The notes below the pieces were generated by a model, which did not search any database, was not told the origin of the DNA, and was given only the letters and a program-made list of their open reading frames with translations. This document shows, one piece after another, positions 8,065 through 38,517 of a stretch of 64,000 nucleotides of DNA. This stretch comes from Acidobacteriaceae bacterium (GTDB taxonomy: Bacteria > Acidobacteriota > Terriglobia > Terriglobales > Acidobacteriaceae), in assembly GCA_003139095.1 (NCBI GenBank), contig PLHW01000029.1:1-64000 (forward strand), given 5' to 3'. The translations under genes and the position numbers were made by a program. How positions within the stretch are numbered: position 1 is the first letter of the stretch; each line of letters opens with the position of its first letter.

Positions 8065-9618
8065 ATGACCAAAGCCGCCATGGACAAAGGACAGTCGAAA
8101 TCGGCGCGTCTACCGAGAGAGAAGATGGCCGGGCGGTCGCTGACGCACTATTCCGTGCACGCCATCGCGTTTTTTTCCGGCGGCGTGGTATTGCTGCTGG
8201 AAATTCTGGGAACGCGGATCATAGCGCCCTACATGGGAACGTCGTTTTCGGTGTGGGTGAGCATCATCGGAACTATCCTGGGCGCGCTCTCCCTGGGCTA
8301 TTACCTGGGCGGCATCCTAGCCGACCGAAACCAAAAACTGCTGCCCATAATTTTGCTGGCTGGCGCCTGCGCGTGCGCCCTGGTGCATTTTGAGAAACCA
8401 CTGATCCAGGACTTCGGAAGCCTGGGCCTGGAGTGGGGCTCCCTGCTGACGGCAATTTTGTTGTTTGCTCCGCCGAGCGCAGTCCTGGGCATGGTTTCGC
8501 CCTATCTCATCAAGATTGCCGCCGACGATCCGGAGCGGATCGGACGCACCTCGGGGACCATCTACGCGGCGTCCACCATAGGCAGCATTGCCGGGACATT
8601 CCTGGGTGGTTTCTTTCTCATTCCGCATTTTCCGGTTTCGTCCATCCTCTGGGGGATGGTGGCCGTGCTGCTGGCGCTGTCGGCATGGGCAGCCGGGGCG
8701 ATCCGGCCCTACTGGGCGGTCACGGCGGGAGTGCTGCTGACGGCGGTGGCAATTCAGGCGTTCACGTCGTCTGGCGAATGGTCAAGCTATGTGGGCGTCA
8801 GCCACGTGTTCGAGGAAAACAGCCGGTATTACAGCATTCGCGTGAATGAGATCGATGGAGCGGAGAGACTGTTGCTGCTCGATGGGGGGATCAACAGCGG
8901 GCGCGACTTGCAGAGCGACAAAATACTTTTTCCGTACGTTGAACTTTCGGCGAAGCTGATAGAGAGTCTGAAACCGTCGCCGGAGTCAGTATTGATTATT
9001 GGCGGCGGCGGATATACGGTGCCCGAGATCATTAAGCAGTATGCGCCGCAGTCCGACGTGACCGTGGTTGAAATCGATCCTGACGTTACCAAGGTGGCGA
9101 GGCGGTTCTTTTTGAAGACGCCCGACATCGGCATCACCAACCTGAATGAAGACGGGCGCGTTTTTCTCAACCGCAATCGGCGGCAATTCGACCTGGTTTA
9201 TACCGATGCGTACGCGAACACCGGCGCGATCCCTCCGCATCTGGCGACCCGCGAGGCATTTGCCGCGATGGGGCGGGCGCTGAAACCGGATGGAGTGGTT
9301 ATCTTCAATGTCGGCTCGGCGCGGTCTGGCGACCTCGGGCTGGTGTACCAGGCGCTTTACCGGACGCTCCGTGACGTATTTCCCACGATTGCCACTTTTT
9401 CGACCTCGCCGGATGATCCAAGCGACGCGCAAAACCTGATCGTGATCGCAACCAATGCGAAGTCTCTTCCGGAAGATGCCTTGCGAGCCTTCGAACCCTC
9501 GCGCTGTCGCGAGGCGCCGGCCGCGGGTCTGTTGCTGACGGACGATTATTCGCCGACCGAATATCTGGCGCAAGGTATCATTCGGAGGATCTATCCGAAG
9601 GAGCGAAGATACCGGTAG
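8065..9618 (+). CDS. Membrane protein fused to a spermidine synthase-like domain
   Basis: The 517-residue protein joins a polytopic membrane half to a soluble Rossmann methyltransferase-like half. About residues 30-240 hold some seven hydrophobic segments, beginning HAIAFFSGGVVLLLEILGTRI, a typical opening of the fused MFS/spermidine synthase family. The second half carries the SAM-fold glycine loop (VLIIGGGGYTVPE, about 308-320), the acidic strand end VVEIDPD (about 333-339) and YTDAY at the spermidine-synthase active-site position. A GGAAGGGA ribosome-binding site precedes the ATG at 8065; 11 further codons upstream are open. The real substrate of these fusions is not established, so polyamine synthesis should not be assumed. 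Confidence 0.82.
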   Translation: MTKAAMDKGQSKSARLPREKMAGRSLTHYSVHAIAFFSGGVVLLLEILGTRIIAPYMGTSFSVWVSIIGTILGALSLGYYLGGILADRNQKLLPIILLAGACACALVHFEKPLIQDFGSLGLEWGSLLTAILLFAPPSAVLGMVSPYLIKIAADDPERIGRTSGTIYAASTIGSIAGTFLGGFFLIPHFPVSSILWGMVAVLLALSAWAAGAIRPYWAVTAGVLLTAVAIQAFTSSGEWSSYVGVSHVFEENSRYYSIRVNEIDGAERLLLLDGGINSGRDLQSDKILFPYVELSAKLIESLKPSPESVLIIGGGGYTVPEIIKQYAPQSDVTVVEIDPDVTKVARRFFLKTPDIGITNLNEDGRVFLNRNRRQFDLVYTDAYANTGAIPPHLATREAFAAMGRALKPDGVVIFNVGSARSGDLGLVYQALYRTLRDVFPTIATFSTSPDDPSDAQNLIVIATNAKSLPEDALRAFEPSRCREAPAAGLLLTDDYSPTEYLAQGIIRRIYPKERRYR

Positions 9619-9659
9619 ATTGGCGCGCGTGGCCGCAGTGTCAGGGTGGGTTGGGCGCG

Positions 9660-10250
9660 TTATTTGAACTCGAGAACTTCTTTCTCTTTTCCTTTGCTCA
9701 TCTCTTCCATCTTTTTGATTTCGTCGTCGGTGAGCTTCTGGATTTCTTCGAGCGCGCGCTTCTCGTCGTCCTCGGTAATTTTCTTGTCCTTCATGGCTTT
9801 CTTGATGGCGTCATTGCCGTCGCGGCGGATGTTGCGGATGGCGGTGCGGTGCTCTTCGAGAATCCTGTGCAGGTGCTTGACCATTTCTTTGCGGCGCTCT
9901 TCGGTGAGCGCGGGCACGGGCACGCGGATGAGCTTGCCGTCGTTCATCGGATTCAGGCCGAGGTCGCCGCTGCGAATGGCTTTTTCAATCGCGCCCAGCT
10001 GCGACGGATCGAAGGGCTGCACGGTGATCATCTGGGGCTCGGGCGCGTGCACGGTGGCGATCTGGTTGAGCGGCATCTGCGATCCGTAGTAGTCGACGGA
10101 AATGGTGTCGAGCATGTGGACATTGGCGCGGCCAGTGCGCGTGGCGGCCATTTCGCGGCGGAAATCCTCGACCGCTTTTTCCATCCGTGTTTTGAGCTGT
10201 ACGTACGTTTCTTTGAGGGCAGGATTCGCCGCCATTGAGGCTTGTGCCAT
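9660..10250 (-). CDS. frr: Ribosome recycling factor
   Basis: The 196-residue product is ribosome recycling factor, which with EF-G splits post-termination ribosomes. The hallmark segment [20 protein letters not shown] is present (about residues 38-57), as are the later patterns [13 protein letters not shown] and [16 protein letters not shown]. It is about ten residues longer than E. coli RRF (185), through a short N-terminal extension and a [11 protein letters not shown] tail. GGAGCC stands before the ATG; a second ATG five codons in is an alternative. pyrH normally precedes frr directly, but here an AAA ATPase gene lies between them. Confidence 0.96.
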
Positions 10251-10330
10251 AGTGCGAGGCTCCGAAGAATACAGGATTAAAACGCTCGATTATAAACCTT
10301 GTGTTCCCTCGAACAGGTGCGTTCAGGACT

Positions 10331-11521
10331 TCAAGTCTCCCATTCGTTTCCGGGCATGATTCGAATCATGAATTCATCGAACAGGGGGACAGTGAATGCT
10401 GTGTCTCCATGATTGGGACTCCAGATCATTCCCTTCACGATAAGTGCGCTTCGAACTGGTCCCAGCGAACTCACCGATCTTCTCAGCCTCTCCGCAATAT
10501 CGCCGGACCGGTGTGGGCCAGAGCCAATATCTGACATGGCCCGGAGGTAAGTCTTCTCAGTGGGCGTCAACCGATCGAAGCGAACTCTGAAGAAGCTCTC
10601 GTCGAGCGCCGCGATGGCAGCAACCGATGCAGCCTCGACATCCGCCTCCGTGATCGGACTGCGGTCTGCCGTATCCCAGGCATGTTTTCCCCATTCTTGC
10701 AAGAAATAAGGATAGCCTTTTGTCTTGGCAATGATCGCAGTTACAGCTTCACGAGCATAGTCCACCCCTTCATCACGTGCCGGCTTGACAATGGCGCGCT
10801 CCGCTTCCGTATCGTTCAACGCTCCGATCATAGGAAAGTCGAAGAGTCGCTCCGCATAAGATTTTGCCTTGCCCGCCATGCCTCGCAATTGCGGGAGACC
10901 CGCGCCCACCACCGTTATCGGGAGCGCATTTTGAGCGCAGCGGTGAAGAGCGGAGATGAGGGCCGCCAGCTGCTCTTCCTTGACGTATTGCAGCTCGTCA
11001 ATAAAGACGACAACCGCGGTTTGACCGGCTGCGGCCGCCATTGCAACCTGTTCCAGCAGCGATCCAAGATCCAGTTCCAAGTCACCATTGTCCGCGAGCC
11101 CCGCTTCGGGTTCGTAATCGAGACCAACCTCGATGTCTTTGTACCGGAGTTTGAGCCCTCTGGCAAATCCCGCCAAAGCCCGTAGCGCCCGCTTGGCGGT
11201 TTCAATCGCAGCGTGTTCACGACTCAACCGTAGGAGAACCTGTCGTAACTGGGGTGCAAGGAGGGCGGGCAACGACTTGTTCTCCGGCGCCTCCATCCGC
11301 ACGGTATAGATACCGGAGGCCTCGGCGTCTCGGCGAATCTGCTCCAGAAGAACCGTCTTGCCGACTCCGCGCAGCCCCACGAGAAGCACGCTCTTGGCGG
11401 GTCTGCCCTGGCGAATCCGAGCAATCGCGATTCGAAGCTGCTCCCGGAGAGCATCTCTACCCGCTAATTCTGGCGGAGTCGATCCGGCACCCGGAGAGTA
11501 GGGATTAGTGATCGAATCCAT
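10331..11521 (-). CDS. AAA-type ATPase with likely C-terminal winged helix, inserted between pyrH and frr
   Basis: A 396-residue STAND/MNS-like ATPase of unknown role. Walker A is GLRGVGKT (about 49-56) and Walker B is VVVFIDELQ (about 170-178). A sensor-like VVGAGLPQL follows near 205. The C-terminal third (from about 310, with LTPTEKTYLRAMSDI and a later region reading SALIVKGMIW) looks like a winged-helix domain, so DNA binding is plausible. Standalone relatives occur in many bacteria and archaea without an assigned function. It interrupts the pyrH-frr pair and is preceded by an AT-rich promoter with an inverted repeat, both suggesting later insertion and separate regulation. It could be a stress or defence ATPase, but nothing in the sequence proves that. 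Confidence 0.8.
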   Translation of the reverse strand: MDSITNPYSPGAGSTPPELAGRDALREQLRIAIARIRQGRPAKSVLLVGLRGVGKTVLLEQIRRDAEASGIYTVRMEAPENKSLPALLAPQLRQVLLRLSREHAAIETAKRALRALAGFARGLKLRYKDIEVGLDYEPEAGLADNGDLELDLGSLLEQVAMAAAAGQTAVVVFIDELQYVKEEQLAALISALHRCAQNALPITVVGAGLPQLRGMAGKAKSYAERLFDFPMIGALNDTEAERAIVKPARDEGVDYAREAVTAIIAKTKGYPYFLQEWGKHAWDTADRSPITEADVEAASVAAIAALDESFFRVRFDRLTPTEKTYLRAMSDIGSGPHRSGDIAERLRRSVSSLGPVRSALIVKGMIWSPNHGDTAFTVPLFDEFMIRIMPGNEWET

Positions 11522-11602
11522 GGCTTTATATCTAAATTAGTGAAGTTATCAACAATTGATAATATCTGTAATTAAGATACAAATCAACCAGTCGTAGTCG
11601 AA
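11522..11602 (-). promoter_or_regulatory. AT-rich promoter region with inverted repeat before the AAA ATPase gene
   Basis: This 81-bp spacer is far more AT-rich than its surroundings. At 11546-11562 it contains a perfect inverted repeat, TTATCAA-CAA-TTGATAA, about 25 bp before the ATPase start. That position fits an operator overlapping a promoter. Flanking TATATCTAAAT and TAATTAAGATA add further near-symmetry. No terminator for pyrH is visible here. Confidence 0.55.
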
Positions 11603-12319
11603 TCAGGCGCTGACCAGCGAGCCGATTTTTTCTCCGAGAATTACTTTGCGTAGGTTGCCGTGCTCGTTGAGGTTGAAGACGATGATGGGAAGATTGTTGT
11701 CTTTGCAGAGGGAGATGGCGGTGGAGTCCATCACCTTGAGGCCCTGCTTGAGAACGTCCATGTAGGTGATGTGGGAAAATTTCTTGGCGTCTTTCACCTT
11801 CATGGGATCGGCGTCGTAGATGCCGTCGACCTTGGTGCCTTTGAGGATGGCGTCGGCCTTGATCTCCATGGCGCGGAGCGAGGCGGCGGTGTCAGTGGAG
11901 AAGTAAGGATTGCCGGTGCCGCCAGCGAAAATGACCACGCGGCGTTTTTCGAGATGGCGAATGGCGCGGCGGCGGATGAACGGTTCGGCGACCTGGTTCA
12001 TCTCAATGGCCGACTGTACGCGGGTGAAGACCCGCTGCTTTTCGAGGGCGTCCTGGAGGGCGAGGGCGTTGATGACGGTGGCCAGCATGCCCATGTGGTC
12101 GGCGGAGACGCGATCCATGTCCTTGGCCTGATCGGCGACGCCGCGAAAAAAATTTCCGCCGCCGACCACGATGGCAATTTGCAGGCCGAGGTTATGCACG
12201 TCGGCAATTTCGCCCGCGATGGAGTGAATGTGGGCGGTGTCAACGCCGAAGCCCTGGTCGGCGGCGAGAGCCTCGCCCGAAAGTTTGAGAAGAATGCGCT
12301 TGAAGATGGGAGTAGACAT
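11603..12319 (-). CDS. pyrH: UMP kinase
   Basis: The 238-residue protein is bacterial UMP kinase, converting UMP to UDP with ATP in the pyrimidine nucleotide pathway; it belongs to the amino acid kinase fold. Seen motifs are [12 protein letters not shown] at the start, [10 protein letters not shown] (about 52-61), the acidic [14 protein letters not shown] (about 71-84), [17 protein letters not shown] (about 131-147) and VDGIYDADP. Length matches the family (about 240). It sits downstream of tsf with a 139-bp spacer that contains both the tsf terminator and a word-repeat array, so it may have its own promoter. Confidence 0.97.
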
Positions 12320-12330
12320 GGGGCCTCAGG

Positions 12331-12424
12331 GTTCAAGGTTTCAAAGTTTCAAAGCGTCAAGGTTTCAAAGTAAACCGGTTTCAAATCTTTTTCCAACTTC
12401 TTGAAGCCTTGGTCACTTTGAACC
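12331..12424. repeat. Word-repeat array in the pyrH-tsf spacer
   Basis: The 13-mer CAAGGTTTCAAAG occurs twice (12334-12346 and 12358-12370) with a GTTTCAAAG variant between. An opposite-orientation version (TTGAAGCCTTGG, then CTTTGAA) follows at 12401-12422, so the spacer can fold back on itself. The same 13-mer recurs at 14452-14464 in another spacer of this cluster. Confidence 0.8.
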
Positions 12425-12426
12425 GC

Positions 12427-12453
12427 AAACTAAAAGGGGCGCCGCAGCGCCCC
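12427..12453 (-). terminator. Rho-independent terminator after tsf
   Basis: A perfect 7-bp GC stem (12436-12442 with 12447-12453, loop CGCA) sits six bases beyond the tsf stop. On the minus strand it is followed by TTTTAGTTTG. This is a good intrinsic terminator and would reduce read-through into pyrH. Confidence 0.8.
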
Positions 12454-12458
12454 CTGAT

Positions 12459-13133
12459 TTATTTGGCAGCCGGAGCCGCCTCGCCCTCGTCGGGCTTGCT
12501 GCCGGTGGATGCCACGGTCGCGGTCGCGTCGCCGACTTTGAAGCGGGCGAAGCGGCGCACTGCGATGTTCTCTCCCAGCTTGCCGACCTTGGCGGCGATC
12601 AGTTGCGAGATGTTGATGGTCTGGTCTTTGATGAAGGGCTGCTCGAGCAGGCACACTTCCTCGTAGAACTTTTCCATCTTGCCGGTGACGATTTTTTCGA
12701 CCACCTGCGGCGGTTTGCCGGTGGCTGCGGCCTGCGCGCGATAGATGTCCTTTTCGCGCTCGAAGGCCTCGGGCGTTACGTCTTCCTTGCGCACGAACTT
12801 CGGATCGCTGGCCGCAATGTGCATGGCGATGTCGTGGGTCAACTCTTTGAAGTCGTCGGTGCGGGCGACAAAGTCGCTCTCGCAATTGACCTCGACCAGC
12901 ACGCCGATCTTGCCGCCGGCATGAATGTAGTGGGCAACCGAGCCTTCGCTGGTGACGCGCGCCGCCTTCTGCTGCGCCACGGCCGTGCCGCGCTTGCGCA
13001 GAATGACGATGGCCTTTTCAATGTCGCCATTGGATTCGGTCAGCGCCTTTTTGCAGTCCATCATGGGCGCGCCGGTTTTTTCGCGGAGATCTTTCACTTG
13101 TCCTGCTGAAATGTTTGCCATACTCGTACTCAT
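12459..13133 (-). CDS. tsf: Translation elongation factor Ts
   Basis: The 224-residue protein is EF-Ts, the nucleotide exchange factor of EF-Tu. The conserved N-terminal block reads VKDLREKTGAPMMDCKKAL, and VLVEVNCESDFVARTDDF (about 80-97) is the family signature that contacts EF-Tu. It is of the short EF-Ts type, clearly smaller than E. coli (283). I choose the ATG at 13133, preceded by GAGG at six bases. The open frame goes 17 codons further, into spacer repeats, and an ATG at 13121 is also possible. It lies between rpsB and pyrH as in most bacteria. The C-terminal tail (from about 205) is Glu/Ala/Pro-rich. Confidence 0.96.
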   Translation of the reverse strand: MSTSMANISAGQVKDLREKTGAPMMDCKKALTESNGDIEKAIVILRKRGTAVAQQKAARVTSEGSVAHYIHAGGKIGVLVEVNCESDFVARTDDFKELTHDIAMHIAASDPKFVRKEDVTPEAFEREKDIYRAQAAATGKPPQVVEKIVTGKMEKFYEEVCLLEQPFIKDQTINISQLIAAKVGKLGENIAVRRFARFKVGDATATVASTGSKPDEGEAAPAAK

Positions 13134-13150
13134 TAGAACCTCATCTGTCA

Positions 13151-13253
13151 AAAGTTTCAAAGTTTCAAGGTCTGAAGGTTTCAAGGAGAAGAGATCACAG
13201 GGTCAAACTTCAATGAGCACCCTGCAACCTTGAAACTTTGCAACCTTGAAACC
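13151..13253. repeat. Inverted word-repeat array in the tsf-rpsB spacer
   Basis: CAAAGTTTCAAGGT (13158-13171) is matched by its exact reverse complement at 13227-13240, giving a 14-bp inverted repeat with a 55-base loop. Further copies of the words GTTTCAAGG and CCTTGAAAC flank both arms. This is the same word family as in the pyrH-tsf and rpsB-rpsI spacers. Confidence 0.8.
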
Positions 13254-13261
13254 TGCTGTTA

Positions 13262-13296
13262 TAAAAGTCGACCCGCGCAGACCGGCCACGCGGGTC
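13262..13296 (-). terminator. Rho-independent terminator after rpsB
   Basis: A perfect 8-bp stem, GACCCGCG (13270-13277) with CGCGGGTC (13289-13296), stands about 50 bp past the rpsB stop. On the minus strand it is followed by GACTTTTATAA. The loop of 11 bases is a little long but contains GGCC and may tighten the hairpin. Confidence 0.72.
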
Positions 13297-13346
13297 AGAT
13301 CCTTCGGAATTGCTGGAGGCCATTCGCGAAGCGCCAGCAGCCGCTG

Positions 13347-14255
13347 TTATGACCGGCGCGTTTCCGCCTGGAGTTCGTCGATATCCTCTGTGATGGCCGC
13401 GGGGCGCTTGCGCGTACCCGTGCCGAGCACATCTTCCATGCTGATGTCTTCGCCCTCGGGAGCGATTGCGACCGCCTCGACCGCGACTTCGACCGGCACG
13501 CCCTCCGCCACAACTTCGGCTTGCGGTTCGGCATAGGCTGCGGCCTGGATCTCGGCCACCTGCTTATCGCCCAAGGCATTCACGCCTTCGGCGATAGACT
13601 CGGAAATCTTCGAGGTAAACAGACGGATCGCGCGCAGCGCGTCATCGTTGCCGGGAATCACATAATCGACTTCGGTCGGATCGCAGTTGGTGTCCACGAC
13701 GGCGACCACCGGAATGCCCAGCTTACGCGCTTCGCGCACGGCGATCTGCTCTTTGTTCGAGTCGATGACGAAAATCGCATCGGGCAGCCGCGACATATTC
13801 TTAATGCCGGCCAGGTTCGCCTGGAGATGCTTGCGCTCGCGCTCGAGCTTGATGACTTCTTTTTTCGGCAGAAGATCGTAGCGGCCATCGGTGGCCATCT
13901 CGTCGAGCTCTTTCAGCCGCTTCACGGATTTTTGCACGGTGACCCAGTTGGTCAAAAGGCCGCCCAGCCAGCGCTGGTTCACATAAAACATGCCGCAGCG
14001 CCCCGCCTCTTCGGCAATGGCGTCCTGCGCCTGGCGCTTGGTGCCCACAAAGAGAACCACTTTCCCTTCGGCCGCCAGATCCTGCACGAACTTCGACGCC
14101 TCTTTGAACATCTTCAGCGTCTTTTGCAGGTCGATAATGTAGATCCCATTGCGCTCGCCGAAGATGTACTCCTTCATGCGCGGGTTCCACCGCTTGGTTT
14201 GATGCCCGAAGTGCACACCCGCTTCGAGCAACTCTTTCATGGTGATGTTAGCCAA
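13347..14255 (-). CDS. rpsB: 30S ribosomal protein S2, TTG start
   Basis: The 302-residue protein is ribosomal protein S2. The start [22 protein letters not shown] is nearly invariant in the family, and [18 protein letters not shown] and AVVDTNCDP are all present. The first codon is TTG; AAGGAGG (14260-14266 on the plus strand) is a complete Shine-Dalgarno sequence four bases before it, while the next ATG, five codons in, is too far away. The protein is about 60 residues longer than E. coli S2 because of an Ala/Val/Glu-rich tail from about residue 235. tsf follows, the conserved order. Both neighbouring spacers carry word-repeat arrays. Confidence 0.97.
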
Positions 14256-14289
14256 TTAACCTCCTTATTTGGTCTGCATCCGGCGAATT

Positions 14290-14358
14290 GGTTGCCAGTT
14301 GCCGGTTGTCAGTTGCCAGTAAACCGCCTGGACACTGGCTACTGGCGACCGGCAACTG
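14290..14358. repeat. CAGTTGCC-type inverted word array in the rpsB-rpsI spacer
   Basis: The words GGTTGCC, CAGTTGCC, GGTTGTC and CAGTTGCCAGT run head to tail at 14290-14320. They are answered by ACTGGCTACTGGCGACCGGCAACTG-type complements at 14333-14357. The two halves can pair with a loop of about a dozen bases. The words differ from the GTTTCAAGG family beside it, so two unrelated word families share one spacer. Confidence 0.75.
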
Positions 14359-14431
14359 CTCTTCCGGATTGCCATTCCCGTCCCACCCATCTCGGGGGAG
14401 GTGGGGGGATGAATTGAACACCTAAATCAAA

Positions 14432-14524
14432 GTTTCAAGGTTTCAGAGTTTCAAGGTTTCAAAGACTCAAGGCGCTGCTCAGACAACGTTGAAACCTTGA
14501 AACCTGCGACACTCTGAAACCTGC
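14432..14524. repeat. GTTTCAAGG inverted word array before rpsI end
   Basis: GTTTCAAGGTTTC starts at 14432 and again at 14448 (period 16). The exact reverse complement of GTTTCAAGGTTTCA lies at 14490-14503, and CTCTGAAACCTGCG extends the second arm. The array ends at the rpsI stop codon, so in the mRNA it forms the immediate 3' flank of rpsI and could act as terminator, attenuator or stability hairpin. Confidence 0.8.
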
Positions 14525-14527
14525 GCT

Positions 14528-14923
14528 TTACCGCTTACTGAACTGGAAGCGCTTTCTTGCGCCCTTCTGTCCGTACTTTTTGCGCTCTTTGGCGCGCGGA
14601 TCGCGGGTGACCATGCCTTCGGCCTTCAGCTTTTTGCGCAATTCCACGTTAAAAAGCATGAGCGCGCGCGTGATGCCAAGGCGCACGGCCTCGGCTTGTC
14701 CCGCCACTCCGCCGCCGTTGACGCGGGCGAGCACGTTGAAACTGGCGCCCGTCTCTGTCGAAGCCAGAGCCTGCTTGGCACTTACGCGCTGCGAAGGGGT
14801 TACAAAGTATTCTTCGAACGCTTTGCCGTTGACCTTGAATTCACCGCTGCCCGGACGCAGAAAAACGCGCGCAATCGCCGCCTTCCGCCGCCCCGTTCCG
14901 TAGTATTGAACCGTCTCTGCCAT
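14528..14923 (-). CDS. rpsI: 30S ribosomal protein S9
   Basis: The 131-residue product is ribosomal protein S9. It shows [19 protein letters not shown] near the start, the conserved [15 protein letters not shown] (about 69-83) and the basic tail ending [12 protein letters not shown], whose last residues contact P-site tRNA in the family. Length agrees with E. coli S9 (130). It is the second gene after rplM, as in nearly all bacteria. The ribosome-binding site is weak (GAAGC), so translation may be coupled to rplM mRNA structure. Confidence 0.97.
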
Positions 14924-14928
14924 GTTTA

Positions 14929-15070
14929 GCTTCGGGCCTCGAGCTTCGAGTTCCGAGCGATCGTCGCACGGAAGGCTGAAGCGTCTGGCCTGATAACCTT
15001 TCTGAGAAATCTTAAACTCTTTTTGCTCGCAGCTCGCAGCTCTCGACTCGTAGCTCGCGGCTCGCAGCTT
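14929..15070. repeat. GAGCTTCGAG/CTCGCAGCTCG word array in the rpsI-rplM spacer
   Basis: AGCTTCGGGCCTCGAGCTTCGAG with TTCCGAG lies at 14929-14957. CTCGCAGCTCGCAGCTC, TAGCTCGCGG and CTCGCAGCTT fill 15025-15070, with roughly 70 ordinary bases between. The two blocks are loosely complementary. This third word family keeps the pattern that every spacer of the cluster carries its own repeated vocabulary. Confidence 0.7.
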
Positions 15071-15074
15071 CTTC

Positions 15075-15506
15075 CTACGCGAACACTTTCACTTCCGGTT
15101 TCTGCGCCGCGTGCGGATGCTTGTCGCCCTTGTATACCTTGAGCTTGGTGAACATCTGCTTGCCGAGTTTGTTCTTCGGCAGCATGCGCGAAACGGCCAG
15201 TTCAATCACCAGCTCCGGCTTGCGCACCAGGCGCTTCTTGACCGCCTCGGAGCGCAGTCCGCCGGGATAGCCGGTGTAATGGTGATAGGTCTTCTGCTCG
15301 ACCTTCATGCCGGTCATCTTGACCTGCTCGGCGTTGATCACAACGACGTGATCGCCGGTGTCGATGAACGGCGTATATTGCGGATTTTCTTTGCCCATCA
15401 GAATGCGGGCCACGCGCGAGGCGAGCCGGCCGAGCGACTGCCCGGTGGCATCCACCACAAACCACTTTCGCGCAATTTCCCCTTCTTTCGGGAAATAGGT
15501 TGACAT
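15075..15506 (-). CDS. rplM: 50S ribosomal protein L13
   Basis: The 143-residue protein is ribosomal protein L13, an early 50S assembly protein. Visible family segments are [44 protein letters not shown] and the end region [19 protein letters not shown]. Length matches E. coli (142). The start is the ATG at 15506, preceded by GGGAGAG; the open frame runs far upstream through the repeat leader and should not be translated. It heads the rplM-rpsI-rpsB-tsf-pyrH-frr direction. The upstream DNA contains a tandem GATCGATCCA array, possibly part of the leader. Confidence 0.97.
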
Positions 15507-16069
15507 CGCAACTCTCCCAAACTGAAAGAACGAATGATGAAGACCGCTGAGTGCCCCGATCGATCCAATAAAAAGATCGATCCAATTGAAGATCAATCCA
15601 CAGAAGATCGAACCTGAAAATCTATCCCGGTAAGATCGATCTAACGACGCAATCCACGCAGAACGCGCGCAAGGTGTTCCGGGCGGGCAGCCGCAGGACT
15701 TCCAAAGGAATTTAGGATAGCCCACGGACGGACCGATTGTCAACGAACAGATTCAGACCAAAGGGGTTATTGGGGCGGCTGGCCACTTTCGGGCCTCTCC
15801 GCCGATGATACCTGCCCCGGTGACGCCCATCACCGCGCAAAGTGCGGGGGCGCGGGAACATTAAGCCGTAAGCGCAAGCCTCGCAAGGAAGGAAGGGCAG
15901 CTAAGTGCTCCCGGGTCGTTCGTCTGCCGGGTTCACACGATCTTTCTCTGGCCATGCCCACAAGGGAGCGTCCCAACTTCCGACGGGCGGGCCAACCTCG
16001 AGGCCGGTCCGCGGCGCCTCGCGAAATCTTGCCAGGCCGTCCGCCTCCGGCTGCCGAAGGAGGTTTGTT
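15507..16069. other. Divergent intergenic region between rplM and the universal stress protein gene
   Basis: These 563 bases contain no gene I can support. The left part (15558-15655) holds the tandem GATCGATCCA repeats, presumably within the rplM promoter or leader. The right part must contain the promoter of the stress-protein gene. Frames that run through it come from the long open frames of both flanking genes and lack ribosome-binding sites. Confidence 0.5.
15558..15655. repeat. Six to seven degenerate tandem GATCGATCCA repeats upstream of rplM
   Basis: GATCGATCCAAT occurs exactly at 15558 and 15575. Variants follow at 15591 (GATCAATCCA), 15606 (GATCGAACCT), 15619 (AATCTATCCC), 15634 (GATCGATCTA) and perhaps 15646 (CGCAATCCA). 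The spacing is 13-17 bases. The core GATCGATC is its own reverse complement. The array begins 52 bp upstream of the rplM start codon. Confidence 0.8.
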
Positions 16070-16978
16070 ATGCCAGGCGTTGTTGCTCCCACCCGCATCA
16101 AGCTGGACAGCATTCTGTTCGCGACCGACTTTTCGCCCTCGGCCGAGACCGCTCTGTCCTATGCCCTCAATCTGGCTCATCACTACAACGGCTCCGTGTA
16201 TTCGGTCAACGTACTGCCGCATATGCCATTCATCGAGTGCCCGCAGGTCGCCTCCGAGCAAGCGCGGTTTCTGATGGAAGAACGAATGGCTGAATTCTCG
16301 GCGTCCCCATTTCTGCGCGACATTCGCCACAAGGAATTCATCGAAGAGGGGGAGGTGGCGGAGGTGCTGTCCAGACTGGCGGCTGAACACGACATCCATT
16401 TGATCGTGCTCGGAACCGGCGGCCGCAAGGGTTTCGGAAAACTGCTGCTCGGCTCGGTCGCGGAAGAAGTGTTCCGCAAGGCCGAGTGTCCCGTGCTCAC
16501 CGTGGGGCCGCACGCCACGCGCTGGGAAATCGAGGGCCATCTGCGGCATATTCTCTATGCCACCGATTTCGGCGCGGAGTCGCTGCACGCGCTGCCCTAT
16601 GCCGTTTCTTTGGCGGAGGAAAATCACGCTCGTTTGACGATGCTGCACGTTGCCCTGATGCCTGACGTGCCGATGACGGAGATAGAGGCGGGAGCGATGA
16701 GAGTGTACGATCGCGATGAAATATCGGCCGAAAGGTTAAGGCATCTGCGTAGTTTGATTCCCGAAGCCAACCAGCTTAGGCAAGAGCCTGAGTATCTGGT
16801 GGAATTCGGATCGCCGGTTGGCACGATACTGAAGGCGGCTGCGACCGCGGACCTTATTGTGCTGGGCGTAAAACGGCCAACCGTTCTAACAAAACATTTG
16901 GGCGCGGGCGTCGCCTATAAAGTGGCCTGTGACGCGCCTTGCCCGGTGCTTTCGGTGAGCGCGCGATGCCGCGATTAG
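16070..16978 (+). CDS. Tandem-domain universal stress protein
   Basis: The 302-residue cytoplasmic protein holds two UspA domains (about 8-148 and 153-300). Each opens with the typical strand phrase (ILFATDFSPSAE and ILYATDFGAESL). The first domain ends with the ATP-binding glycine pattern GGRKGFGKLLLGS, which fits G-2x-G-9x-G-S. The second has KRPTVLTKHLGAGVAY instead, so only the first half is likely to bind ATP in the classical way. GAAGGAGG stands seven bases before the ATG at 16070 and fixes the start. Tandem Usp proteins respond to starvation or redox stress; which signal applies here cannot be read. DUF202 and DUF302 genes nearby make a stress-related neighbourhood plausible. Confidence 0.9.
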   Translation: MPGVVAPTRIKLDSILFATDFSPSAETALSYALNLAHHYNGSVYSVNVLPHMPFIECPQVASEQARFLMEERMAEFSASPFLRDIRHKEFIEEGEVAEVLSRLAAEHDIHLIVLGTGGRKGFGKLLLGSVAEEVFRKAECPVLTVGPHATRWEIEGHLRHILYATDFGAESLHALPYAVSLAEENHARLTMLHVALMPDVPMTEIEAGAMRVYDRDEISAERLRHLRSLIPEANQLRQEPEYLVEFGSPVGTILKAAATADLIVLGVKRPTVLTKHLGAGVAYKVACDAPCPVLSVSARCRD

Positions 16979-17055
16979 CGCGAGGCGAGGCACTGGACGC
17001 CTGGAACGACGCGATTAGAAGGGCGGAGAAAGCGTTAGATAGCGCGGACTATGCA

Positions 17056-17103
17056 AATCGTTCGACTATCCAATCGCTCGGCTAACCAGTCGCCCGGCTA
17101 ACC
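17056..17103. repeat. Three 16-bp tandem repeats running over the rpiA stop codon
   Basis: The units are AATCGTTCGACTATCC (17056-17071), AATCGCTCGGCTAACC (17072-17087) and AGTCGCCCGGCTAACC (17088-17103). The last two differ at two positions. The third unit includes the rpiA stop codon (17098-17100), so the array has eaten into the end of the coding sequence or grown out of it. Confidence 0.85.
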
Positions 17104-17778
17104 AACGCGGATTTCTTCCACGCGATCGCCACGCCCAATCAGCGCCAGGGTCGCCAGACCGATAAAGAGCCCGTGTTCGACCACGCCCGGAATATTGCTC
17201 AGCGTGCGCGCGAGGGCAGGAGGGTCGCCGATTTTTCCGAACTCGCAATCGAGAATCGGGTTGCCGTTGTCAGTGAGATATAAACTGCCGCCGGCGCGAG
17301 TGCGCAGTTTGGGCGTAGCGCCCAGCGCCTGAATTTTCCTTTTGACCACGGCGCGCGCGAACCCGACAATCTCGACCGGCAGCGGAAACTTGCCAAGCGC
17401 CGGTACCAGTTTGGAGGAGTCGGCGATGACGACCATTCGCTTCGAGGCGGCGGCGATGACTTTTTCCCGCAGCAGCGCGCCGCCTCCACCTTTGATCAGC
17501 CGCAACTGCGGATCGATCTCGTCCGCGCCGTCGATATCGATGTCGATTTCCGGATGCTGATCGAGGGTCGCCAACGGAATGCCGACTTCGCGCGCCACAT
17601 CCGCAGTCGCGTTCGAGGTGGGAATGCCGACGATTTTCAGTCCAGCTTTGATGCGCTCACCGAGAGCGAGCATCGTAAAGAAGGCGGTTGAACCTGTGCC
17701 CAGGCCGACGACCTCGCCGTCGCGCACCAGTGCGGCGGCGGCGCGCCCGGCCAGTTCTTTCTCTTTTTCATTGGCCAT
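17098..17778 (-). CDS. rpiA: Ribose-5-phosphate isomerase A
   Basis: The 226-residue enzyme interconverts ribose 5-phosphate and ribulose 5-phosphate in the non-oxidative pentose phosphate pathway. Family motifs are present: VGLGTGSTAFF (about 24-34), IDIDGADEIDPQLRLIKGGGGALLREK as two adjoining stretches (about 79-105, with the catalytic acidic residues and the GGGGAL loop), and TDNGNPILDCEF. Length is normal (E. coli 219). The ATG at 17778 has a GGTGATT ahead of it. The C-terminal codons and stop lie inside a 16-bp tandem repeat. It is followed on the other strand by the stress protein and preceded by the DUF202 gene. Confidence 0.96.
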   Translation of the reverse strand: MANEKEKELAGRAAAALVRDGEVVGLGTGSTAFFTMLALGERIKAGLKIVGIPTSNATADVAREVGIPLATLDQHPEIDIDIDGADEIDPQLRLIKGGGGALLREKVIAAASKRMVVIADSSKLVPALGKFPLPVEIVGFARAVVKRKIQALGATPKLRTRAGGSLYLTDNGNPILDCEFGKIGDPPALARTLSNIPGVVEHGLFIGLATLALIGRGDRVEEIRVG

Positions 17779-17865
17779 GAATCACCGAAAATAGCGGATC
17801 AAAAATAGATCGCCGAAAGTGGATCATAAATTCCGCGCCCCGCCTCGATTTCGTTTTCGCGGCCG

Positions 17866-18255
17866 TCATTTTCTGAACAACTCAATGTAGACGAGATAGC
17901 CCGCCAGCGCGACCCCAAAAAGACCGAGCAGATAAGAAACGATATCGATGACGAAGCCGGCCGGCTCAAAACTGCCGGTGTCGAGTTGCACGCGCGTCTT
18001 GCGATAGCGCGCCAGACCGGCCAGAATGAGGAGCACTCCGCCGGCAATCGAGATCACGCCGAGCCATGCGGTAACTCCGTAGGTATTTGAGTCACTCCCT
18101 TGCAGGCGGAGAAATTCGCGCAGTGCGATGGAGAAGCGGCCGATTGCGAATCCGAAGATGATGGTGGCGATGCCGGTGCGCACCCAGGCGAGAAAAGTCC
18201 GCTCATTGGCGAGGTGGTCGCGGGCACGGTTGGGATTGGTCTCGGGCATCTTCAT
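17866..18255 (-). CDS. DUF202 (YidH-type) membrane protein
   Basis: A 129-residue inner-membrane protein of the DUF202 family. The conserved opening DHLANERTFLAWVRTGIA is present at about 13-30, followed by three hydrophobic segments (about 26-45, 63-83 and 105-125). The cytoplasmic N-terminus is hydrophilic. I start it at ATG 18255; an in-frame ATG two codons later and a longer upstream frame exist, but the family normally begins just before the ANERTFLAW motif. No function is established for the family. It follows the DUF302 gene by 25 bp and is probably co-transcribed with it. Confidence 0.87.
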   Translation of the reverse strand: MKMPETNPNRARDHLANERTFLAWVRTGIATIIFGFAIGRFSIALREFLRLQGSDSNTYGVTAWLGVISIAGGVLLILAGLARYRKTRVQLDTGSFEPAGFVIDIVSYLLGLFGVALAGYLVYIELFRK

Positions 18256-38457: not shown

Positions 38458-38517
38458 CGCGCGGCCTCGCAACCTTGAAACATGCTGCCATTGTACCCTC
38501 GGTCGCGGGCCCGCCCC

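Follow-up and report, generated by a model that had tools for sequence, protein, structure and literature searches.

We analyzed a 64,000-nucleotide (nt) stretch of contig PLHW01000029.1 from an Acidobacteriaceae bacterium (GenBank assembly GCA_003139095.1), here called the window, and in particular the four spacers of its ribosomal cluster rplM-rpsI-rpsB-tsf-pyrH. All four contain words 7 or 8 nt long, repeated in tandem and accompanied by inverted partners. Across this soil bacterium and related ones, the word differs by gap and by species, and the hairpin layout and direction are mostly constant. We read the arrays, with a probability of about 0.48, as palindromic spacer elements that are dispersed genome-wide, consist of 7- or 8-nt words in tandem, and resemble repetitive extragenic palindromic (REP) sequences and bacterial interspersed mosaic elements (BIME).

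The cluster lies on the minus strand, with the gene order rplM, rpsI, rpsB, tsf, pyrH in the mRNA sense. Tandem Repeats Finder returned 21 rows for the whole window. Its rows inside 12320-15074 all fall within the four spacers (12332-12371, 13154-13186, 14291-14320, 14427-14472, and 15025-15069), and their periods are exclusively 7 or 8, with one array reported as 16 also. The inverted arms match at 88% (14296-14320/14334-14358), 86% (14438-14458/14485-14505), 84% (13162-13186/13228-13252), and 80% (12340-12354/12408-12422). A previous reading made from the letters alone (the sequence-only reading) had described repeated words with inverted partners in each spacer, and both were recovered. The 13-mer CAAGGTTTCAAAG does occur at 12334, 12358, and 14452, as that reading had listed, and has 25 copies in the 5.53-Mb genome versus 1 for the reversed pattern. 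A related word that it had placed at 38471-38482 is there as well, as a single word with no array. In the mRNA sense, the cluster reads rplM, arm-gap-arm, rpsI, an 8-nt hairpin, the rpsB leader (its outer arm being a 7-nt hairpin), rpsB, a terminator-like hairpin, an 8-nt hairpin, tsf, a terminator-like hairpin, an 8-nt hairpin, and pyrH. See Table 1 for coordinates.

Two samples were used to follow these arrays beyond the window. The relatives sample drew on the window and on 80 loci that Tsf had located in relatives, which together supplied 278 spacers 40-700 nt long. The own-genome sample covered 1.127 Mb in 61 pieces (198 kb intergenic and 929 kb coding), namely the window and 60 fetched pieces, 40 from contigs bearing the 13-mer and 20 from contigs without it; genes were called by a simple codon-usage script and no standard gene finder. 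The density of self-matches in the 278 spacers was 14.3/kb at lag 7, 11.1/kb at lag 14, 8.5/kb at lag 8, and 9.0/kb at lag 16, and weak at lag 24 (2.3/kb); dinucleotide shuffles gave at most 0.04/kb at these lags. Arrays were present in 39/63 rplM-rpsI, 39/73 rpsI-rpsB, 41/79 rpsB-tsf, and 10/63 tsf-pyrH spacers of the window and relatives. Within the own genome, lag-7 arrays numbered 102 in intergenic versus 17 in coding DNA and lag-8 arrays 53 versus 7, a density about 30 times higher between genes. Periods 6 and 9 did not behave this way, as lags 5, 6, 9, 10, and 11 gave 0, 11, 11, 3, and 4 intergenic and 7, 82, 48, 3, and 2 coding arrays. The 13-mer contigs with the window held 137 intergenic lag-7/8 arrays in 139 kb of intergenic DNA (864 kb total) and 24 coding ones, and the contigs without the 13-mer held 18 in 59 kb (263 kb total) and 0 coding. 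Extrapolation gives a genome total of some 400 to 900 arrays. Like heptameric intergenic repeats, the 7-nt tandem units are concentrated in intergenic DNA; instead of one near-perfect unit per family, however, there are many degenerate words and a period of 8 as well.

The arrays also have a preferred place and shape. With a looser array threshold, they occupied 97/429 tandem gaps (22.6%), 24/137 divergent gaps (17.5%), and 20/110 convergent gaps. Array starts lie within 15 nt of a stop codon in 27/45 tandem array gaps, against 13.2 +/- 2.2 by random placement; no excess before start codons was found (14/45 tandem array gaps within 25 nt versus 18.5 +/- 2.5 expected). The order of forward words, gap, and inverted words described by the sequence-only reading is thus shared, concentrated in spacers, and often found directly after stops. 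Among gaps of 60-600 nt, a strong inverted stem was seen in 38/125 array gaps but in 13/456 array-free gaps and 0/125 shuffled gaps. The elements therefore share with REP and BIME sequences the property of being palindromic repeats dispersed in spacers. An origin by chance or composition has virtually no probability and is refuted by these controls, since no shuffled gap gave a strong stem and shuffled spacers are nearly free of arrays: at the looser threshold, arrays were found in 64/289 gaps of the first 464 kb versus a mean of 4.0 in mononucleotide-shuffled gaps.

The sequence-only reading had taken word choice to be local. This did not hold, as the words are a vocabulary common to the whole genome and its relatives. 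Unsupervised phasing of arrays from the window and relatives gave one degenerate heptamer, R-C-Y-V-R-N-A, for 145 period-7 arrays, which as a pooled consensus is a mean over words, and AACYTTGA in one orientation for 66 period-8 arrays. Within the own genome, a looser RRCY box (RGYY when read on the other strand) fits 39 of 61 period-7 arrays and 20 of 38 period-8 arrays; ARCY fits 25 and 16, respectively. When period-7 arrays were cut to whole units, 69% fit RRCY, compared with a mean of 23% for permuted unit columns (maximum 38%, 200 trials). In this bacterial family, most words that can be scored carry the box once per 7 or 8 nt. In the first 464 kb, AAACCTTG and AAACTTTG were the words seen most often (23 arrays together), followed by AGAGCTG, AACTGGC, and ACGAGCT. 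The tsf-leader hairpin of the window matches many sites in the genome, but near-full-length matches are just 69-75% identical, so none is a recent copy of the whole unit. Separately, AATTTG-type inverted arrays of 7/8-nt words lacking the RRCY box were observed in the own genome at L097 3475-3658, L108 14546-14680, and L187 at about 2465 and 3926.

Furthermore, the hairpins have a polarity. Of 37 hairpins, 27 carried RGYY in the 5' arm, none had the reverse, and 10 were ties, several of them because AGCT is self-complementary or the box is missing from the word. For arrays no more than 30 nt from a gene end and read outward from that gene, the RGYY:RRCY ratio was 70:4 (48 ties) in the own genome, comprising 36:1 and 16:2 at tandem ends, 12:1 at convergent ends, and 6:0 at divergent ends, and 72:3 (59 ties) in relatives; these ratios exclude ties, which are numerous. 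The 332 array-free tandem gaps were near balance, with RGYY 432 and RRCY 383 over the 40 nt after the stop, and RRCY 364 and RGYY 360 over the 40 nt before the start. Lone arrays obey the same rule (RGYY 18 and RRCY 1 near a stop; RRCY 6 and RGYY 2 near a start), and mid-gap lone arrays were RRCY in 6 cases and RGYY in 2. The polarity is independent of gene direction and therefore belongs to the hairpin within its gap.

Polarity bears directly on the leading competitor, a doubtful one in our judgment, in which the hairpins arise in situ: slippage of 7-8 nt amplifies local sequence, and fold-back template switching then makes the inverted arm, with no dispersal. Such a history would suit the strict 7/8 period, a tsf leader in which one arm differs by 16 nt between relatives L037 and L048 (by eye, a unit-length change), and the fact that recent whole-unit copies were not found. 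The arms also pair better with their own partner than with foreign arms in a slot. When own-partner pairing was compared with same-slot arms from other species, using 39, 28, 11, and 22 array-bearing slots in the four spacers, 37, 0, 0, and 0 of 5000 shuffles reached the observed mean. This swap supports matched words in both arms and is compatible with selection or common origin alike. However, fold-back of arbitrary words should yield both polarities, whereas 27:0 was observed, and the vocabulary and box are shared. Private variants would also be expected, yet in the GTTTCAAG family (12 hairpins) own arms scored 1.245 versus 1.29 for foreign arms, and 4258/5000 permutations reached the observed mean. 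Own arms are thus no closer than foreign ones, and copying from arm to arm is not supported. Template switching from local sequence, as the sequence-only reading had proposed, therefore fared poorly; the single polarity together with the arm comparison argues for a dispersed, REP-like class and against hairpins that form in place.

We then considered the RNA. Folding z scores in the window (60 dinucleotide shuffles) were -6.1 for rpsI-rpsB, -2.7 for rpsB-tsf, -2.3 for tsf-pyrH, and only -1.7 for rplM-rpsI, so the hairpin of this last spacer is weak. Over 267 spacers, the median z of array versus array-free spacers in the four cluster slots was -1.7/-0.8, -3.1/-2.0, -3.6/-1.3, and -4.4/-1.8. 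This better folding in every slot, the closeness of arrays to stop codons, and the rpsB leader arm, a helix whose words differ and whose pairing is kept, would fit a quite unlikely alternative in which selection keeps mRNA stem-loops for 3'-end protection, processing, or separation of translation and the identity of the word is irrelevant. Mismatches on the transcribed strand gave a divided answer. In relatives' ribosomal spacers, GT exceeded AC by 93 to 67 (55 stems, p = 0.048), but counted per stem the ratio was 23:13 (p = 0.13), and the own genome showed no such bias (GT 57 versus AC 53 in 32 stems of tandem gaps; 26 versus 28 in a smaller sample). Additionally, the RNA account has to contend with a polarity that ignores gene direction and with arrays in divergent gaps (17.5%, versus 22.6% of tandem ones). 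For the selection at mRNA boundaries invoked by the sequence-only reading, the evidence points both ways: the slight GT excess in the relatives' ribosomal cluster speaks for it, the divergent arrays and the genome-wide mismatch counts against it. With no fold-back signature and no genome-wide GT/AC bias, a process at the DNA level is favored.

Intrinsic terminators made of repeated words are a very improbable identity for the arrays, and the evidence from the tsf-flanking spacers does not support it. Some relatives' rpsI 3' hairpins do end in short T runs. In the window, however, the rpsB-tsf and tsf-pyrH spacers hold separate terminator-like hairpins upstream of the arrays, and convergent gaps are not enriched in arrays relative to tandem gaps (20/110 versus 97/429). 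Five terminator-like sites were found in 11500-16000 against a shuffle mean of 6.4, and the two on the coding strand in the tsf-flanking spacers are separate from the arrays. The GCGGG[TC] half of the rpsB 3' hairpin occurs in 55/79 rpsB-tsf spacers, and a hairpin like that after tsf occurs in 36/68 tsf-pyrH spacers by a crude pattern.

Relatives carry other words in the orthologous spacers; often the array is kept and the word is changed. Both properties on which the sequence-only reading had staked its case, enrichment of the words in spacers and presence in the same spacers of relatives, were thus found, with frequent changes of word. On a tree of 70 rows, the slot after rpsI (45 rows; eight word states, one of them none) changed state a minimum of 20 times, the tsf leader (49 rows) 15 times, and the rpsB leader arm (38 rows) 9 times. 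The word lists behind these counts were hand-chosen, and 19, 33, and 29 rows, respectively, were scored none. In close pairs, entire hairpins can differ beside a retained neighbor. L037 and L048 have tsf-pyrH arrays that are 98% alike and different rpsB leader hairpins (L044 has a short arm there), and the 120-nt gene windows beside their changed spacers are 93-99% identical. Before tsf, L055 has a word hairpin and L057 a GTAGAGACG...CGTCTCTAC palindrome. Palindromes of this type were also noted in other word-hairpin slots, so that the full list is rpsB-tsf of L057, rpsI-rpsB of L037, and rplM-rpsI and rpsB-tsf of L040. A CATCCTGAGCGAAGCGAAGGACCT-type element was seen at the tsf-pyrH array site in L010, L013, L031, and L044, with an inverted copy too in L044.

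The rpsB leader shows the turnover most clearly. In the window and 46 relative loci, its ends are conserved as TTCAATTC..TCC ... GGGAATGGCAATC, then the arm, then GATGCAGAC..AGGAGG. Scoring of 46/47 arms between the flanks GGCAATC and GATGCAGAC gave 25 short arms (19-32 nt), 13 array arms (68-107 nt), and 8 longer arms without a detected array, of which that of L042 resembles an array by eye. The array arms fall by eye into five word groups: GTTTCAAG, GTTTCTAG/GTTTCTGG, AGTTGCC, GACGACC, and GAGTCGC. For 26 short leaders, RNAalifold predicted ten pairs that form a weak structure (-7.1 kcal/mol) and are mostly near-invariant, one pair showing four standard types; this prediction supports only the base of the variable arm. 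No Rfam family reached the gathering score within 9000-18000, the rpsB leader included. The leader is possibly an S2 autoregulatory leader. It shows an RNA whose outer helix was swapped for unrelated words during evolution.

Beyond these relatives, the degenerate heptamer pattern matches 186/396 genomes of the phylum, patchily, and many have 0 matches. Matches for pattern versus reversed control were 244 versus 11 in the window's genome, 653 versus 36 in G091, and 125 versus 0 in G182; matches overlap within an array and are not array counts. Word sets are genome-specific, as with ACTGATA (TAACTGA in another phase) in G400 and G347. Intergenic lag-7 arrays were present in 11/12 other genomes sampled, none being found in 40 kb of G379, and their words often lack the box. 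The one genome of these from the window's own family, G124, had a polarity of 4:1. In a second phylum, the pattern matched 34/150 genomes with at most 20 matches per genome, and the control had 14 in the top genome. As a side observation, L067, from a record titled Gammaproteobacteria, has a Tsf 80% identical to the window's beside a PyrH 56% identical, which would suit a mis-binned contig or a transfer; its genome had no match to the heptamer pattern.

Several results weigh against a dispersed, REP-like class. A strong stem overlaps the array in only 37/125 array gaps, and by this measure some 70% of them lack a strong stem altogether. The AATTTG and GATCGGG word types of the own genome are without the box. 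Array spacers turn over no faster than others: in 13 independent close pairs, median identity was 0.615 (n=22) versus 0.63 for array-free spacers (n=11), and 0.625 (n=10) where one species of the pair had an array. As array-free spacers are equally divergent, whole-hairpin exchange as a feature specific to arrays is weakened. In some genomes, the reversed control is commoner than the pattern (G144 148 versus 16, G115 170 versus 33, G365 92 versus 1, G347 82 versus 8), so these genomes must use different heptamers. Pooled over the 12 other genomes, of which 11 belong to different families, polarity was 25:10 with 41 ties, and it failed in G103 (9:8). Finally, neither a mobile enzyme nor a target duplication nor any recent copy of a whole unit came to light. 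Target duplication, which would mark a miniature inverted-repeat transposable element (MITE), was sought by eye at empty and filled slots in species-level pairs. A Y1 transposase (PF01797, E <= 0.001) was absent from G105, G116, G146, G173, G182, G230, and G372, which have 24-135 pattern matches (control 0-3). PF01797 has 3 matches in the window's genome and some in 258/396 genomes, but these seven pattern-rich genomes indicate that a REP-associated tyrosine transposase (RAYT, a Y1 transposase) is not required as the mover. Carriage by phage was tried and rejected as an explanation; an 18-mer of the commonest word was found in one stretch among 2.9 million viral contigs.

Some of these points touch on another unlikely alternative, that the hairpins form a class defined by grammar and not by sequence, with tandem RGYY-N3/4 arms, RGYY first, read by some processing or copying machinery. 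Such machinery would recognize box and spacing, letting words drift or be replaced while the element persists. If true, this class and the heptamer repeats of cyanobacteria, Beggiatoaceae, and Xanthomonas may be a single phenomenon. A universal grammar is weakened, as distant families also use other heptamers, G103 breaks the polarity rule, and the control is sometimes the commoner pattern.

For the dispersed palindromic elements that we favor, the following history could be envisaged. The whole RGYY-first hairpin would be the unit that is inherited and replaced, and lone arrays may be half-decayed hairpins. Polymerase slippage in one-unit steps (7 or 8 nt) would homogenize the words within an array. 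Two published accounts, both crediting Mrazek 2007, link heptamer excess to the DNA segment that the polymerase holds (PMC4679880, PMC4692102). Some process would disperse hairpins or words within a genome, so that every genome acquires a dialect of its own. In the mRNA, the elements would be extra stem-loops beside gene ends, tolerated and perhaps sometimes used; the exchangeable outer arm of the rpsB leader may be one such use.

Table 1. Arrays, partner arms, and adjoining hairpins in the spacers of the ribosomal cluster (window coordinates)
Feature	Start	End	Strand
tsf-pyrH array, five 8-nt words (TTCAAAGT phase), arm adjoining pyrH start; partner about 12408-12422	12332	12371	-
Terminator-like GC hairpin and T run after tsf; array downstream of hairpin	12434	12455	-
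rpsB-tsf 8-nt array, arm adjoining tsf start	13149	13188	-
rpsB-tsf inverted partner arm, GCAACCTTGAAACTTTG words	13224	13256	-
Terminator-like hairpin GACCCGCGT...GCGCGGGTC and T run after rpsB; array downstream of hairpin	13269	13297	-
rpsB leader, ends conserved in relatives	14258	14421	-
Variable arm of rpsB leader, 7-nt GTTGCCA words and inverted partner (14296-14320/14334-14358)	14291	14358	-
rpsI-rpsB array after rpsI, 8-nt words TCAAAGTT/TCAAGGTT	14427	14472	-
Inverted partner of TCAAAGTT/TCAAGGTT array; in mRNA sense begins a few nt past rpsI stop	14485	14524	-
rplM-rpsI GCTCGAA-type words, arm adjoining rpsI start	14929	14957	-
rplM-rpsI GCTCGCA words, arm adjoining rplM stop	15022	15069	-

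Two other repeats were noted nearby. Window positions 15558-15611, upstream of rplM, hold an array of units of about 17 nt containing GATCGATC(C), of another kind than the 7/8-nt words, and 17047-17105 holds two or three copies of the 16-nt unit AATCGCTCGGCTAACC.

Repeat families are usually found by their sequence. Here spacing, box, and polarity are constant and the sequence changes, so a homology search will not collect such elements. The polarity rule and the word-swapping slots make predictions on the origin of the palindromes and may unite heptamer repeats that have been described separately. No description of such arrays in Acidobacteriota was found in a library of open-access papers that mostly lacks subscription ones, going by titles, the openings of abstracts, and selected passages. 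The families of tandem heptanucleotides in Geobacter metallireducens (PMC2700814) are one known case. Many dispersed spacer palindromes are also known for REP/BIME with RAYT transposases (PMC3733652). The elements studied here resemble them as dispersed spacer palindromes, and the GTAGAGACG...CGTCTCTAC palindromes in word-hairpin slots add to the likeness. Unlike them, the arrays have no fixed family sequence and some pattern-rich genomes have no Y1 transposase match; no GTAG/CGTC tag was noticed by eye at the ends of the arrays inspected.

The GGGAATC heptamers of Xanthomonas are 89% and 93% intergenic in two species, form 70 and 75 inverted convergent pairs, and lie near an open reading frame on the 5' side (on average 28 nt versus 160 nt) whatever its direction (PMC4692102). 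Intergenic heptamers, inverted pairs, and closeness to a gene are thus features in common. In Xanthomonas, however, there is one G-rich word, discussed as a G-quadruplex, at conserved places, whereas here many 7- and 8-nt words, mostly RRCY, differ at orthologous spacers. TAACTGA direct repeats occur in Beggiatoaceae, cyanobacteria, and Bacteroidetes, and the Beggiatoa copies mostly run forward towards start codons (PMC4679880). This intergenic heptamer contains AACT, which is an RRCY box, and its polarity in Beggiatoa is the same as here; it differs in forming direct repeats, with one inverted case, and related heptamers seldom repeat in the Beggiatoa genome. The Microcystis sample in the same paper does not keep to a single orientation (PMC4679880). 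In the P6b element of the Nostoc trnL intron, a stem of 7-nt repeats persists while two unlike motif classes interchange (PMC4476775). The rpsB leader arm is similarly built from alternative heptamers in relatives, although it is not part of an intron; P6b is a single locus with two motifs, compared with four core-cluster spacers, hundreds of gaps, and eight word states including none. As far as these sources go, the heptamers and the inverted pairs are already known elsewhere, and this analysis adds the shared box, a many-word vocabulary, words of 8 nt, and the finding that orthologous slots within a core gene cluster carry different words.

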